Source of the DNA: a virus
Length of the DNA stretch: 36,943 bases
Reading direction: 5' to 3' (one strand)
IMG/VR virus record: IMGVR_UViG_3300045581_000555
Location: 1 to 36,943 of that record
Part shown: piece by piece, positions 5,533 to 17,508 of the stretch
Position numbering within the stretch: position 1 is the first letter of the stretch
Layout: every line of letters starts with the position of its first letter
Position numbers and translations under genes: made by a program
Notes under the pieces: model-generated
Told to the model about the DNA's origin: nothing
What the model saw: the letters and a program-made list of their open reading frames with translations, nothing else
The model's database searches: none

Positions 5533-6867
5533 CTAGTCGTTTAGCTGATCCGCATAATGCTTCCAGCTTATCTCTGCTTGCGAGTCCGTCGGTATTCCTT
5601 CGAACCCGCTAACAAACTTGGTCGTTGCAAAATCGAGCTCGAGCGTAATATCTCCTACCCGCCCATGCCTATTCTTAGCGATTTGCAATAGTGTTTCCGG
5701 TTTTTTAGGATCGTTTCGGGAAAGTAAGAGGATCATATCGGCGTCTTGCTCGATTTGTCCTGAGTCTCTTAGATGCGAGATTTGAGGTTTTTTATCGACC
5801 ATGCTATCACCCGCCCGGTTCAACTGTGCTAAGGTCACTACAATTGTTTTCGTGTCCTGAGCTAGTTGCTTAAGCTGCCGCGATACTTCGGAGATTTCCT
5901 GATACCTGCTAAGTCTTTTGGCATCTTTGCTTCCACTGATAAGCTGCAAGTAGTCAAACGCAATAATTTTAGCGCCCGTCGTCCGTACTAGTCTTTTCGC
6001 CGATCCGCATAGCTCCTCAATCGTCCGTCCGCCCATCTCGTCGACAATAACCGGTAGCTTTTCGATGCACCCTGCTGCAGCAAAGATTCGCTTTGTGTCT
6101 CGTTCAGTCTGTAGTGATGCGTCTCTGATGTGTCGGCCGTTAACCCCGCTTTCCTGAGAGAGCACCCGCCCCATGATCTCCCTCTGGCTCATCTCACCTG
6201 AGTAAAATACGGCTGGTGAGCCGAGAAAAGCCGACCAATTCAATAGCTGTGTAAGTAACGCCGTTTTCCCAATCCCGGGGCGTGCGCCGATAACGAAAAG
6301 CTCACCGCCGTAAAAACCTCGGAAGTACTCGTCCAGAACCTCAATTCCGCTCCCGAATGCAATAGGAGGATCATCCCGCTCCATGCTTTCAAAAAGGTCT
6401 CGAATCAGAGCCCCGTAGCCGAGCGGCTTGCCCCGCGTCTCCCCTCTTACGTCTGCTAGAGCCCCTTCGATAGCTTCCACCGTCGTATCGATATCGCCAC
6501 CATTTAAGAGCCCTTCTAGTGTCGTGATAAGCCCAACCCTTAGCCTCTCGCGGTTTCCTGCTGCTACCAGCCCCCTAGCTTCGTAAACTGCAAGCTCTCG
6601 GTTCCAGTCTCCTGCCGATAGCTCGTGCAGGATAACCGCTGGTGTGCCCCATAGAGCCCTTCCTTCGGCCGTGAGCGAGTCGAAAACGGCTAGCCCCTGT
6701 AATCCCCCTGTGACCGGATCAATCGCTCCTGAGCGGCTTATAGCGTCCCAGAGGTAGCCGTATTTTGGATGGCTAAAATATTTCGCCGAAAGTCTGGTCT
6801 CCTCCAACCGTCCAATGATTTCGGGATACGCAAAGGCCGTGGATAAGATTAGAATCTCGTTTTTCAT
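5533..6867 (-). CDS. dnaB: Replicative DNA helicase, DnaB family
   Basis: A 444-residue DnaB-type hexameric helicase that unwinds the fork. The N-terminal helical domain covers about 1-105 and the RecA-like motor about 165-435. Motor motifs are intact: Walker A GARPGIGKT at 194-202, catalytic Glu in SGEMS at 223-227, Walker B IIAFDYLQL at 301-309, then the LAQLNR segment and the LRDSGQIEQDAD region that contacts the neighbouring subunit. Length is normal for the family. The start ATG 6867 has a GGGGG ribosome site after an A-tract. It lies two genes downstream of the initiator that carries the iterons, the expected initiator-helicase-SSB order; no separate helicase loader of a known family is seen. 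Confidence 0.95.
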   Translation of the reverse strand: MKNEILILSTAFAYPEIIGRLEETRLSAKYFSHPKYGYLWDAISRSGAIDPVTGGLQGLAVFDSLTAEGRALWGTPAVILHELSAGDWNRELAVYEARGLVAAGNRERLRVGLITTLEGLLNGGDIDTTVEAIEGALADVRGETRGKPLGYGALIRDLFESMERDDPPIAFGSGIEVLDEYFRGFYGGELFVIGARPGIGKTALLTQLLNWSAFLGSPAVFYSGEMSQREIMGRVLSQESGVNGRHIRDASLQTERDTKRIFAAAGCIEKLPVIVDEMGGRTIEELCGSAKRLVRTTGAKIIAFDYLQLISGSKDAKRLSRYQEISEVSRQLKQLAQDTKTIVVTLAQLNRAGDSMVDKKPQISHLRDSGQIEQDADMILLLSRNDPKKPETLLQIAKNRHGRVGDITLELDFATTKFVSGFEGIPTDSQAEISWKHYADQLND

Positions 6868-7121: not shown

Positions 7122-8158
7122 TTCGTCGTTACTCCACTTTCCTTAGCTTCAATATCTCTAAAACAACTCCTCAGATTGCTTGCATGGATCGAGAACTTCG
7201 ATAACTCGAACTTTTTAACTTCCTCTCTCCAATCAGGCCCCCATGCCATGATCGCAGCTTGCATCAACCGCTCCCAATGCTGCGGCTTTGCGAACGAGGT
7301 ATCAGGTTTAATCTCGATCTTTTGCTCTGTGTTAAGAATCCGCCGAAAAAGTCGATTGAGCTGATCATCGGTTAGATCGCTTTTTGGCCCTGATGGATTC
7401 TTCCAATCTCCGAGCTTCCCCCACTTAATCTCTTTATCGATCCAATTTCTAACCGTTTTGCACCAATCAGCTCGCTTCTTTTCTTTGTCGGCATGGTGAG
7501 CGCGGCAAGATTCGATGATTGCCTCGATCCTCCTACCTTCATCTCTTGGGTAAAGGTTAAACGCCTGAGCTTGCTTCTTAAGATATTCGATCAGCTTCTC
7601 TTTCTCTTCTTCGCTAATCTGGAACGGTCGAGGAGCCTTTCTTTGCTTTTTAGAGGACGGTGAATCGTTACTTGCTGCGAGAGGGTCAACAATAGAGGCG
7701 GCTTCAGTCGCCGGATTTATATTCTTATCCTTTGATCTAATATCTAATCTAATAGGGTGACAATTTGTCAGGGGTAGGGGTGACAATTTGTCAGGGGTGG
7801 GGTGACAATTTGTCAGGGGTGACAATTTGTCAGGGGTGACAATTTGACAAGGGTCAAGCGGTAAAGCCTTGTAGATTGAGCTCTTCCCTACCCGCTTCGT
7901 AACTTCAACTAAGCCCTTTTCGATCAAGCTATTGATCACCCGGATCGCGGTCCTGTCTGAGCTTGAAAGAGCGCGGGAAAAATAATCAAAGCTATATCGG
8001 CACTCCCCCGCATTCCACGATGCAATCATGCTGTAAACGATTTTCTGCTCTGCTGTAAGATTCGAAAGGAGAACGGCAAAAGGGATTTTAAGGAACTGCC
8101 CGTTCTGCACTGTTTCGCTATTGCCGGACGGCGGATCGGTAGGTACAATAATACTCAT
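7118..8158 (-). CDS. Replication initiator with internal iterons (lambda O-like arrangement)
   Basis: A 346-residue protein. Residues about 22-98 form a winged-helix/HTH domain (LTAEQKIVYSMI, then a recognition-helix region and a basic wing), as in phage replication-initiation proteins. Residues about 104-134 are a Pro/Leu/Asn/Cys-rich low-complexity linker that is simply the translation of the five DNA iterons. The C-terminal part (about 185-340) is helical and basic, with a DKEKKRADWCKTVRNWI segment resembling C-terminal domains of phage replisome-organiser proteins. The N-terminal domain probably binds the iterons and the C-terminal domain recruits the helicase encoded downstream; this is inferred by analogy to lambda O. 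The start ATG 8158 has CAGGT upstream. Confidence 0.8.
   Translation of the reverse strand: MSIIVPTDPPSGNSETVQNGQFLKIPFAVLLSNLTAEQKIVYSMIASWNAGECRYSFDYFSRALSSSDRTAIRVINSLIEKGLVEVTKRVGKSSIYKALPLDPCQIVTPDKLSPLTNCHPTPDKLSPLPLTNCHPIRLDIRSKDKNINPATEAASIVDPLAASNDSPSSKKQRKAPRPFQISEEEKEKLIEYLKKQAQAFNLYPRDEGRRIEAIIESCRAHHADKEKKRADWCKTVRNWIDKEIKWGKLGDWKNPSGPKSDLTDDQLNRLFRRILNTEQKIEIKPDTSFAKPQHWERLMQAAIMAWGPDWREEVKKFELSKFSIHASNLRSCFRDIEAKESGVTTK
7714..7754. other. AT-rich tract beside iterons (candidate DNA-unwinding element)
   Basis: Immediately beside the iterons is a strongly AT-rich stretch containing three copies of ATCTAAT (7735-7741, 7742-7748 and 7747-7753, the last two overlapping). In origins such as those of lambda and iteron plasmids, an easily melted repeat tract sits next to the initiator-binding sites. 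The tract is still inside the coding frame of the initiator gene. The role is inferred from position and composition. Confidence 0.6.
7758..7849 (-). repeat. Five palindromic iterons, predicted replication origin
   Basis: Four exact copies and one variant of a 13-bp near-perfect palindrome, TGACAATTTGTCA, lie at 7758, 7781, 7803, 7820 and 7837 (start positions). The fifth copy ends in GACA. Copies are joined by G-rich spacers; the start-to-start distances are 23, 22, 17 and 17 bases. The array is inside the initiator gene, as the lambda origin is inside gene O. An AT-rich tract flanks it on the left. The repeats are DNA sites rather than selected protein repeats: the distances are not multiples of three, so the same DNA repeat is read in different frames. 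Confidence 0.85.
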
Positions 8159-8172
8159 GATTACCTGCTTGC

Positions 8173-8274
8173 TTAGATTAAAAGGTGGTCTACGGTCAGA
8201 GAGAAGGTCGCCCTTTTTTCCTCCTCTTTGACCGGCCCTTTCGGGTACCCCTTAACAAGCGGGTAGGTGTCCAT
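8173..8274 (-). CDS. Possible 33-residue protein upstream of initiator
   Basis: A short ORF of 33 codons lies between the 53-residue membrane protein and the initiator gene. It is charged, with an EEEKR cluster, and ends 14 bases before the initiator ATG. A GGG preceded by purines lies about six bases upstream of its ATG, a weak ribosome site. Without it the region 8159-8305 would be a 147-base gap, unusual in this tightly packed region. A promoter or leader for the initiator is the alternative explanation. Confidence 0.35.
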   Translation of the reverse strand: MDTYPLVKGYPKGPVKEEEKRATFSLTVDHLLI

Positions 8275-9806: not shown

Positions 9807-10574
9807 TTATTCGTTCTCGTTCTCGTTCTCTCTCTGAGCTGCGTAAAATTCCAGCGTTAACTCGTCAACGTACTCAGCATATTCGCCTGCTTTTTCTTCA
9901 GGTATCAACGCAATCCCTTCTTTTGTCACCGTCCCACCGAGCGCCTTTGCCTGTCTCGTTGCACGTGCTTTCCGCTCTTTGTCCCATGCCCGATCTAATG
10001 TCACCTCAACCTTTTTTTCTTGCGGTGCTTCGATGCTTTGGAGCGCTTCGATCCTCAAGTCTGGCTTAGAGCTCGGGAACGATGCTGAATCAATCTCTAT
10101 CGCTTCATCCTCGAGCGGGATGCCTTCGAGAATCCCCGGCGCTACCGCTCTAACTGCTTCGGCTTGGGCTCGTCGGAGTAGCATCGATCTCGGATGCGAT
10201 TTCCAGTTATCTTTCCCGGCTAACCCTGCTTTCTGCGCTTGCTGGATCGTCCACCGTACCCGAGCTGTCCCGCCGTGTGGGTGATGCAGCGAGATTTCCG
10301 CTGCTTCCTCCGTCAACTCGTGGATCTCTTGTCGCCCTCCACTCGCCAAAAACCGACTCATCATTGTTTGGCTGGTCATGCTCGCCCGCCCCTGAATCAC
10401 GTGATATTGCCTGCACGCTACCATCGGGTGCAATCCGTCGGCCTGGCAGAGGAGCATCAACGCCATCGCTTGCGTCGGATCTTTCATCCCAAAAAGGCCG
10501 CTCCGCGCTACTACATTTGCCATCGTTTCAAGGTCTTTTAAGCTGTGATTCATTGTTGATATTTCTGTAGTCAT
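9807..10574 (-). CDS. recT: RecT-family ssDNA annealing protein
   Basis: A 255-residue recombination protein. The family pattern is visible in order: a helix ending in ARSGL, a Gly-Leu-His-Pro-Met segment (LCQADGLHPMVACR), YHVIQGRASM, a TMMSRFLASGG helix, the HPHGGTARVRW strand, QKAGLAGKDNWKSHPRSMLLRR, and VAPGILEGIP. RecT proteins coat single strands and anneal them to complementary DNA; they usually work with an exonuclease, but no YqaJ- or lambda-type exonuclease gene is visible in this window. The C-terminus ends in an Asn/Glu repeat tail. Start ATG 10574 has an AGGAG site. It probably acts in replication restart or in generating concatemers. Confidence 0.82.
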   Translation of the reverse strand: MTTEISTMNHSLKDLETMANVVARSGLFGMKDPTQAMALMLLCQADGLHPMVACRQYHVIQGRASMTSQTMMSRFLASGGRQEIHELTEEAAEISLHHPHGGTARVRWTIQQAQKAGLAGKDNWKSHPRSMLLRRAQAEAVRAVAPGILEGIPLEDEAIEIDSASFPSSKPDLRIEALQSIEAPQEKKVEVTLDRAWDKERKARATRQAKALGGTVTKEGIALIPEEKAGEYAEYVDELTLEFYAAQRENENENE

Positions 10575-14389: not shown

Positions 14390-14542
14390 TTAAAACGGCT
14401 CTAAATATTGTTCAGTCCAAAATCCGAATCCACCTTCATCATATTCAATGAAATATATCCCGTCAGGCAATACTTGCCTTACTGTTGCCCCAACGATTGG
14501 ACGATCTTCAATCCTTTTTACTCTGTCATTTATCTGATACAT
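14390..14542 (-). CDS. Small acidic SH3/KOW-like protein, 50 residues
   Basis: A 50-residue ORF just after the collagen-like fibre gene. The start ATG 14542 overlaps the stop of the fibre gene as TAATG, and the stop lies 13 bases before the next gene's ATG. The sequence reads as short strands (VGATVRQVLPDGIYFIEYDEGG, given only in part here as VRQV, YFIEY and FGFW), with a hydrophobic/aromatic pattern typical of small SH3- or KOW-like barrels. Such proteins occur next to tail-fibre genes but have no known function. Overlap, continuity and a folded-protein-like composition support it as real. Confidence 0.65.
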   Translation of the reverse strand: MYQINDRVKRIEDRPIVGATVRQVLPDGIYFIEYDEGGFGFWTEQYLEPF

Positions 14543-17508
14543 TATCCCAACCCACTTACGAATAAACTTCTCGTATTTGTGATCGCAACAATTAAATCAG
14601 GTGTTGCTGCGTATTTTATTCTATTCAAGTCAACTGCTCTACCTAGCCGGTGAGAATTTCCACCCGTAGTTGTAAACGCTCGTCCTGCTCTTTCAAGCAA
14701 CGTCGTTACCCCATCGTAATACCCAAAAACTATACATTTGGCCGAAGATATATACTCAATCCCGAATATCCGGCCACTCGTGTCTTTCATATTTAACGAG
14801 CCTTGGCTATACGCAGAACCATCTGAGGACGTTAATATTCCTCCGTTGTTTGTCGTATCAGCTGAATCAGAAACAACTAAAACCGACGCTTCTGGAAAAT
14901 AGACTAGATCGATATAGGTAGACCCCGGCGTCGTGCGCGCTGTCCACGTGGTGCCATTTGCACTTGTCATAATCGATGTCGTCGTTGTTCCAATGCCAAC
15001 AGCAACAAATAAGGATAATTCATTAATCCATTTGATTCGGTACCAAGAACTATCTGCTGCGCTGGTTCTGCTTGTCCACGTTATCCCATCGGGAGAAGTC
15101 ATTATGCGGTTGCCGGTTCCAGTATCACTAACCGCCGCAAAAAGAGATAAGGATGGTGACCATGCAACATCTTTCCACGCGTTAGCTGCTGCCGCCGTTC
15201 TGTTAGTCCAGTTAATTCCATCTGGACTTGTCATCACTCTATTTGTGCCGTCGCTTGCAACTGCTGCGAAAAGAGAGAGCGATGGTGCCCATGCAATTCC
15301 GCGCCAACTATTCGTTTGGCTTTCGGTTCTCAACGTCCATGTTTTGCCGTCGGATGATGTCACTACCCTTCGCGTACCTGTCGAACCTACAACGCACCAT
15401 AGGCCCAAACTAGGCGCGTACTCAACCGCATTCCAAGCCGCAGTGGCCTGCGGTACAAATTGATCATAAATAACGCCCAGTGTAGTACTTTTAGGCTGGC
15501 TGATAGTCGCCCATGTTTGATCGCCGCGTAAATATGTGGTGCTGTTTGCTGTATTGCTACCAAGTCTGGCGGTAGCGATTGTTCCACTCGTAATATCTGC
15601 TGCTGCGTGTGTGTGTGATGCTGCTGCGGCTCCGAGAGTTGTTCTTTGTGCCGCTGCATCTGCGTCATCAAGGAGAGCTCGGCCGGCGGCTGTGCATATC
15701 AGCTCTTCGATATCTCCAGCACCTGCCGAACTTCTCCCTAAAACTCGATCCGTCGTACTCACATTCTGTATCTTCGCATAGGTAACCGCATCACTATCGA
15801 TCGTGATAGTCGCGCCGCTGCCTGAAACGATAACATCCCCGCGATCTCCATCGGCAAGTCTTACTGTGATACTACCCGCACCGTTATCGATCGCAATCCC
15901 ATTGCCTGCGGTCAAACTTGCATTTTCCCACACCCCCGCCGGTGCATCATAGATTAATGTATGCCCGCTCGATGGAGAGGTAATTAAAACGTCATGAATC
16001 TCATCCAGCTCATACCCGTTTTGAACTTTTACAAAAAGCTGACCATCTCCTGTATTTGCTCGTTCAACAATTCCAATAAAAACAAGGTGATTTGGTGCAA
16101 TTGGCTTTGTTCGCGTTATTGTTCCGGCTGTCGATCCTAGCCATGCTATATCACCATCAACCCACGGTGCGCCTAGCGATAAACCTGCCTGCACTCCTTG
16201 TGTTATGACAAACCCGATCTGATTACTTGCGATCGTTTCCGAGACTATTCCGAGCGTTTTGTTGCTGGTCGTGTCTGTTGTGTTGCTTGCACGTCTGACT
16301 TCTGCACGATTGCCCGATGCTGATGAGAGATATACAACCTCACCTTTCTGCAACGCCGTTGTTTCTGCATTACGCACCCGTGCATATAGTTGCTGCCCGA
16401 GCATTGCGGTAACGTTGCCGCCTTTAAGACCCAATTCTAATGTCCCCTCAGCACCGTCCCATGCTGCCGTCCCTTCAACGATTGTCGGGGCAGTAGCCGC
16501 TGTATCGATCTGGAAATAATCGAGCGTCGCGCTCGTGGTATCGAGTAGCCCGGTATCTGATAACGTAGCCGTACTGTTTTGAATTATGGTCCCGCTCGTC
16601 CCATCCCATCGCACGATCGCGTTATCTGTTGATGCTTGCGGCCCTGTGACTGCTGCGATCGGCTGTGGGCCTTGAGCTCCTTGTGCCCCCTGTGGCCCCT
16701 GTGGCCCCTGTGGCCCTTGCGTTCCTACTCCCCCTTGTGCACCTTGAGCGCCTTCAGCGCCTTGTGATCCTTGCAATCCCTGGGCTCCTTGATTGCCCTG
16801 ACCGCCTTGATTGCCTTGGGCACCTTGTAGCCCTTGCGCTCCTGTAGCTCCCTGCGCACCTTGAGCACCTTGCGCTCCCATATTACCTTGAGCACCTTGC
16901 GATCCCGTCTCTCCTTGCGGTCCTTGTGTACCTGTTGAACCTTGTGCTCCCTGCGCTCCTGTGGCTCCCTGCGCTCCTGTGGCTCCCTGTGGTCCTGTGG
17001 CTCCCTGCGCTCCTTGAACACCTTGAGCCCCTTGTAACCCTTGCGGTCCTATCGCACCCTGACCGCCTTGTGCGCCTTGTGCGCCTTGTGCGCCTTGTGG
17101 CCCTTGAGAACCTTGCGCACCCTCAGCACCCTGTGCTCCGATTGCTCCCTGCGGTCCTTGTGCCCCTTGAGCACCTTGCGGTCCGGTATCCCCCGTTAAG
17201 CCGATTTCCCCTTGCGGTCCTGTTTCACCTTGTGCGCCTTGATTCCCTTGTGGCCCTTGTATGCCCTGCGCTCCTTGTGGCCCTTGGGCTCCTATGCCTC
17301 CCTGCGATCCTTGGTCTCCCTGTGGTCCTTGGGCTCCTTGTTGGCCTACAATACCCTGTGGCCCCTGAACGCCTACCACCCCAGTCTCGATGACGTTCAC
17401 TTGCCCATCCACCTCAACCACTGTATAGGCTGGCGCAACTTGCACTTGTGGCCCATCAACTACTTCGACAATCGTATAGCTTTCTGGCGCTTCAATCTCG
17501 CATGTCAT
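14542..17508 (-). CDS. Collagen-like tail fibre with C-terminal beta-propeller
   Basis: A 988-residue fibre protein in three parts. Residues about 1-45 are a virion-attachment region. Residues about 46-281 are an uninterrupted run of roughly 78 Gly-X-Y triplets, mainly Gly-Ala-Gln and Gly-Pro-Gln, expected to form a collagen-type trimeric stalk. After an IVRWDGTSG segment (about 298-306) and trimeric beta-rich linkers, residues about 690-988 contain seven repeats of a W/Y-x-x-I/V-x-Y/W-x-P-S-L-x-L-F-x-A-V pattern, the first three or four followed by SxDGxTWTxRT, consistent with a seven-bladed propeller. The propeller is the likely receptor- or glycan-binding head. The ATG overlaps the upstream gene (ATGA). 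Confidence 0.85.

Follow-up and report, generated by a model that had tools for sequence, protein, structure and literature searches.

Does a row of short palindromes within a phage gene mark the origin from which that phage replicates, and is the row kept for its DNA or for the peptide that it encodes? We addressed these questions for a 36,943 nt stretch of viral DNA (hereafter the window), in which five copies of TGACAATTTGTCA, four of them exact, lie inside the gene of a replication initiator. A first-pass annotation of this DNA had proposed that the repeats are the iterons of a replication origin.

The initiator and its genomic context

The protein encoded by the iteron-bearing gene matches the replication-initiation PHROGs 270, 678, 186 and 428, with an E-value of 1.1e-9 for PHROG 678 'replication initiation O-like', and scores above the cut-off of 25 for Pfam HTH_36 (30.3 bits, E 3.7e-7). 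In the AlphaFold2 model, pLDDT is 94-98 across most of the N-terminal winged helix (residues 27-98), while the residues encoded by the iterons (104-135) fall within a low-confidence stretch without secondary structure that is predicted to be disordered. By analogy with O and DnaD, the helical region that follows (residues 181-341) is presumed to be the helicase-loading part. The N-terminal domains of the RepA_N initiators 4pql, 4pt7 and 5kbj were found at Foldseek ranks 1, 3 and 4 (E 0.003-0.016); no RepA_N Pfam match was obtained for the window initiator, and the HTH profile returned a RepA_N match among PDB sequences only at E 0.14.

A DnaB-type replicative helicase is encoded downstream of the initiator and RecT- and Gam-like genes lie upstream (Table 1), with the remainder of the record encoding portal, major head, terminase and lambda-like tail proteins. 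The protein encoded at 727-1977 shows matches to DNA methyltransferases as well as to ParB-like partition families. The genes share one strand, which made GC skew of the record uninformative.

Table 1. Features of the initiator locus, in window coordinates. Iterons are numbered in the coding direction of the initiator gene.
Feature	Position	Strand	Reading or basis
Replication initiator CDS, 346 aa	7118-8158	-	HTH_36 N-domain, linker predicted to be disordered, helical C-domain; PHROG, Pfam, AlphaFold2
Winged-helix DNA-binding domain, residues 27-98	7865-8080	-	AlphaFold2, Foldseek
Recognition-helix stretch SSDRTAIRVINS, residues 66-77	7928-7963	-	Alignment positions; helix H68-80 in model
Iteron 1	7837-7849	-	TGTCAAATTGTCA; one mismatch; TGA frame, TGT replacing TGA
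Iteron 2	7820-7832	-	TGACAAATTGTCA; exact; read DKLS
Iteron 3	7803-7815	-	Exact; read LTNCH
Iteron 4	7781-7793	-	Exact; read DKLS
Iteron 5	7758-7770	-	Exact; read LTNCH
12-bp direct repeat TATTAGATTAGA/TATTAGATCAAA	7731-7742 / 7743-7754	-	Includes three + strand ATCTAAT
AT-rich tract	7715-7754	-	82.5% AT; AT-richest 40 nt of initiator gene
Helical C-terminal region, residues 181-341	7136-7618	-	AlphaFold2, low confidence
DnaB-type replicative helicase CDS	5533-6867	-	PHROG 19, E 1e-75; Pfam DnaB_C, E 5e-66

An iteron array and an AT-rich tract within the gene

The start-to-start distances of the five iterons are 23, 22, 17 and 17 bp, and the spacers are of GGGG type on the + strand. By base counting, about 0.001 exact 13-mers are expected in 37 kb; no further exact or one-mismatch copy was found in the rest of the window. 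Tandem arrays elsewhere in the 37 kb were limited to a collagen-like tail-fibre gene and, at 9811, a 20-bp hexamer run. The tail-fibre repeats are of 9 and 18 bp and occupy 16682-17340 within the gene at 14542-17508. A literature search with the iteron letters gave no match. The first-pass annotation had described each iteron as a 13-bp palindrome, which holds for the 5-bp arms (TGACA-n3-TGTCA) and fails for the 3-bp centre, which is asymmetric. A 16-nt inverted repeat pair (88%) was also noted, with one member in the initiator gene (7887-7902) and the other upstream of the gene start (8252-8267); it may have arisen by chance.

In the coding direction, the array is followed directly, within at most three bases of the last iteron, by an AT-rich tract that is likely to be the unwinding element. 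An overlapping 40-nt stretch shifted by one base is 80% AT, a level met by about 0.09% of the record's 40-nt windows. Three copies of ATCTAAT (+ strand; 7735, 7742 and 7747) form part of the 12-bp direct repeat. The number, spacing and G-rich spacers of the iterons, their place in the reading frame between two parts of the protein, and the adjoining tract with its three ATCTAAT copies were thus all re-found as first annotated.

Copies in the stop-containing frame are altered at the stop triplet

Along the gene, the window iterons fall in codon frames 0, 2, 1, 2 and 1, bearing out the earlier observation that the same DNA is translated in different frames. On the coding strand, TGACAAATTGTCACCCC presents a TGA stop in one of its three frames. 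Iteron 1 is the only copy in that frame and also the only imperfect copy, read as TGT CAA ATT GTC ACC; the other four alternate between the two open frames, as DKLSP or LTNCHP. A spacing of 17 shifts the frame by -1, such that two of these steps cover all three frames, and spacings of 22 and 23 switch between the open frames.

The same pattern recurs in other arrays of this class. Among those with at least three copies, 23/31 use two or three frames. The triplet is altered in 14/16 copies in the TGA frame (to TGT, CGA, TGC, GGA, GAA or AGA); the two unaltered copies, in L085 and L086, lie outside the called initiator ORF. Mismatches fall inside the TGA triplet in 15/19 cases in the TGA frame versus 15/65 in the other frames. 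The absence of an intact TGA is forced by translation, and the informative part is that the rest of the site is retained. In a relative with 34% identity in the matched stretch (L001), the first copy is the same but reads TGC at the triplet. Because 23/31 arrays use two or three frames, sequence comparison indicates that the DNA, and not the linker peptide, is under selection, as the first-pass annotation had argued.

In-gene palindromic repeats are common among HTH_36 initiators

A pattern scan of viral stretches for two TGACA-n3-TGTCA sites within 24 bp identified at least 120 stretches, compared with 10 for a control with reversed half-sites. An HTH_36-like ORF was present in 20 of the listed loci, and most of these have repeats that begin soon past the end of that domain and no further copy elsewhere in the locus. 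More than half of the 120 listed matches lie outside long ORFs, and the use of such pairs as a constant mark of initiators was dropped. These pairs outside long ORFs, seen in L018, L024, L034, L049 and L054 and in over half of the loci L017-L136 overall, lie in AT-rich DNA, often about 30 bp start to start; they are apparently unrelated to HTH_36 initiators and are perhaps operators.

A tblastn search with the whole window protein against annotated phages gave no match, a first search for relatives found one locus only, a scan with query A2 recovered near-copies of ST64B only, and a 16-row alignment was too divergent for pattern scans. An iteron-blind set was assembled from the HTH protein alone, comprising 18 annotated phages along with genome prophages and viral contigs, which clustering at 75% identity reduced to 104 clusters. 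Palindromic repeats at the same place in the gene, with other half-sites, occur in most of the annotated phages, including TGCA in ST64B and LESphi3, a GGTACC type in Ab105-2 and GTGACG in Root. Using a strict test of X-n5-X' palindromes against dinucleotide shuffles (p up to 0.05), 57/103 clusters were significant, where about 5 are expected by chance, or somewhat more as the best cluster member was taken. The remaining 46/103 had no significant array by this n5 test, and some have another geometry. The arrangement is therefore common, and across relatives the repeats are retained while frame and linker peptide vary, as the first-pass annotation had anticipated. The motif CACCCCC was found in 36/101 clusters, and C-runs are frequent in the relatives. 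A sister class of initiators (L167, L171, L461 and L464), in which Ser replaces the anchor Arg, has the palindrome CGTCA..TGACG.

A further element was identified behind the iterons. At least two copies of AACC(A/G)T(C/A)A occur directly behind the array in 38/101 clusters, for example about 100-250 nt past the HTH end in L303, L310 and L157, with a step of 10-12 bp in most cases; the 400 nt preceding and the next 400 nt beyond had none. In 36/38 of these clusters the copies lie in more than one reading frame. Exact repeats of at least 7 nt at a lag of 10-12, searched for irrespective of sequence, were likewise found in 18/56 cases after the array versus 2/56 further on. The repeat behind the window iterons has a 12-bp period and a sequence that differs from AACC(A/G)T(C/A)A; that this element helps to unwind the DNA or to recognise a strand would be a guess.

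Recognition-helix residues covary with half-site bases

Helix positions were numbered 0 to 7 as in L-S-E-R-A-V-R-N, such that position 7 of the window initiator is Arg73; its specificity positions in the alignment are Ser67, Asp68, Arg69, Ile72 and Arg73. The half-site takes the form NG(A/C)(A/C) in 45/57 significant clusters, with 12/57 outside that form, and all 45 share Arg at position 3 and a G as base 2. With both the half-site form and the helix positions picked by inspecting the data, base 4 of the iteron-blind clusters is C in 7/8 with Arg at position 7 versus 1/37 otherwise (Fisher p 1e-6), base 1 is G in 12/16 with Arg at position 6 versus 1/29 (p 7e-7), and, where position 7 is not Arg, base 3 is A in 9/10 with Thr at position 1 or Asp at position 2 versus 0/27 (p 8e-8). 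Arg at the position of window residue 73 thus goes with YGAC, and other residues with YGCA or YGAA. For the window helix, SSDRTAIR, the rule predicts YGAC and TGAC is observed.

In the reverse direction, Arg occupies position 7 in 21/21 clusters with TGACA iterons, compared with 41/104. The contrast is clearest between L056 (SKRSVMRHI, TGACA) and the ST64B type (SKRSVMNHI, TGCA), a natural pair whose domains are 75% identical. Ten fresh phages were then considered, among which the correct class of eight ranked first in 7 of the 8 with the anchor Arg, the independent weight resting on L462, L463 and L465, since L457 to L460 are kin of the phages that set the rule. The two lacking the anchor Arg bear another palindrome. 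Within the half-site form, the rule is broken by L348, L300, L395, L330 and L350. For base 4, a masked short-domain tree gave five well-supported independent contrasts, four agreeing and none opposing, which is too few for significance.

Taken with the element behind the iterons, these data make it probable, at the level of sequence, that phage HTH_36 initiators bear their own sites in-gene and that base 3 of the half-site is set by helix positions 1/2, base 1 by position 6 and base 4 by position 7, while Arg at position 3 and the G of base 2 do not vary. The specificity of an origin, and cross-talk that may arise among phages, would then be predictable from sequence, with AACC(A/G)T(C/A)A marking the unwinding side in more than a third. 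Beyond what was first annotated, the imperfect copy is the stop-frame copy, the recognition helix predicts the repeat sequence, and the arrangement is widespread. Neither AACC(A/G)T(C/A)A nor the stop-frame pattern nor the recognition rule turned up in the searchable literature, with subscription papers mostly outside it, and their novelty is unproven.

Comparison with known in-gene origins

In lambda and Stx phages, iterons and an AT-rich tract lie mid-gene in O (PMC7466680), and each lambda iteron is an inverted repeat to which a dimer of O binds (PMC5043065). In the lambda record, iteron 1 is TCCCTC-n5-GAGGGA and the copies lie in frames 0, 2, 2 and 1. The palindromic nature of the iterons, previously held to set this phage apart from lambda, is thus shared, and the two have a common 5-bp centre if the window half-site is counted as TGAC-n5-GTCA. 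Lambda and the Stx phages (P27, 933W; PF04492) also resemble the window in placing iterons between the DNA-binding and C-terminal parts, in the adjoining AT-rich tract and in the use of several frames, which upholds the likening to lambda O/ori. The window differs in its HTH_36 DNA-binding domain, in its half-site (TGACA rather than TCCCTC) and in having its own phage-encoded DnaB helicase. The window initiator gave no match to PF04492 Phage_rep_O, which lambda O matches at 6e-36, and a direct profile comparison of the two proteins with hhalign found no relation; lambda O also matches PHROG 678 'O-like' (E 1.7e-35).

Repeats within the O-like gene of Pseudomonas phage MD8 (gp56) were noted by its authors (PMC8508860), in passages that give no recognition rule. 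MD8 gp56 and its relatives belong to the same HTH class as the window initiator, with TGCA/CGCA iterons, and differ in the TGCA half-site and in Gln at helix position 7. In the staphylococcal plasmid pSK41, whose RepA_N initiator Rep has a DnaD-like structure, Rep boxes lie centrally in rep and are bound by the N-domain, and the encoded middle part is dispensable (PMC5703833). pSK41 Rep shares the in-gene sites and fold similarity with the window, but belongs to another family and to a plasmid. SPP1 has direct repeats in gene 38 (gp38/oriL), an AT-rich unwinding element and the DnaB-type helicase gp40 (PMC6316719); unlike the window, it has a separate helicase loader, gp39, and a second origin, oriR. 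Because these systems share its layout, the window is an instance of an already known plan.

Discussion

The array, its position, the frame rule and the covariation of half-sites with the recognition helix are direct observations, and we regard it as very probable that the segment is a phage replication origin of lambda type within its own initiator gene. N-terminal winged-helix dimers would bind each TGACA-n3-TGTCA palindrome, with the invariant anchor Arg69 and Arg73 as the likely readers of the half-site TGAC. Lined up along the array, these dimers would wrap or bend the DNA such that the adjoining AT-rich tract opens, and the C-terminal part of the initiator may recruit the phage DnaB encoded just downstream. 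The iteron DNA would be placed at a disordered linker where nearly any peptide is acceptable barring a stop, which would explain why copies occur in different frames and why those in the TGA frame are altered mainly in that triplet.

The palindromes could instead be operators, with the HTH protein regulating only its own transcription or that of a replication operon and replication starting elsewhere. The fold matches of the window domain do include MarR/CodY-type repressors, which bind palindromes, but the array is well removed from the start of the gene, about 300 bp inside, in the part that separates the two protein regions and next to an AT-rich or repeat tract, and the initiator's families are annotated as replication initiation; we therefore consider this improbable. 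A partition (centromere) or incompatibility site is less probable again. The centromere-binding proteins TubR and AspA are also among the fold matches, and the ParB-like/methyltransferase protein is encoded in the same record, yet the repeat tracks the recognition helix of the initiator and not that of another gene's product, the neighbouring gene encodes DnaB, and no ParA was seen.

That the linker peptide is selected, the DNA repeats being a by-product of repeated peptide units, we judge very unlikely. Prolines do recur in the linkers, but the segment is predicted to be disordered, most arrays place copies in two or three frames so that the same DNA gives DKLSP or LTNCHP, and the frame-0 copies differ mainly in the TGA triplet. 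Least credible of all is a role for the palindromes and their G-rich spacers as a DNA structure, such as a G-quadruplex or cruciform, and not as protein sites: GGGG spacers in the window and the C-runs of relatives would fit such a structure, but many arrays are without these runs (for example L002, L007 and L057), and the half-sites persist and track the protein.

If the segment is an origin of lambda type, in-gene origins, so far known from a few models, occur commonly across a large class of phage initiators that are often annotated merely as 'primosomal protein' or 'hypothetical', and the origin could be located in such genomes from sequence alone. The arrays also illustrate how a DNA signal is accommodated within a coding frame, where the stop-containing frame is avoided or the stop triplet is changed by one base. 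As the binding sites of HTH_36 initiators would lie within their own genes, every genome would supply a protein together with its matching DNA site, and these pairs of recognition helix and iteron constitute a natural data set on how winged-helix proteins change their targets.
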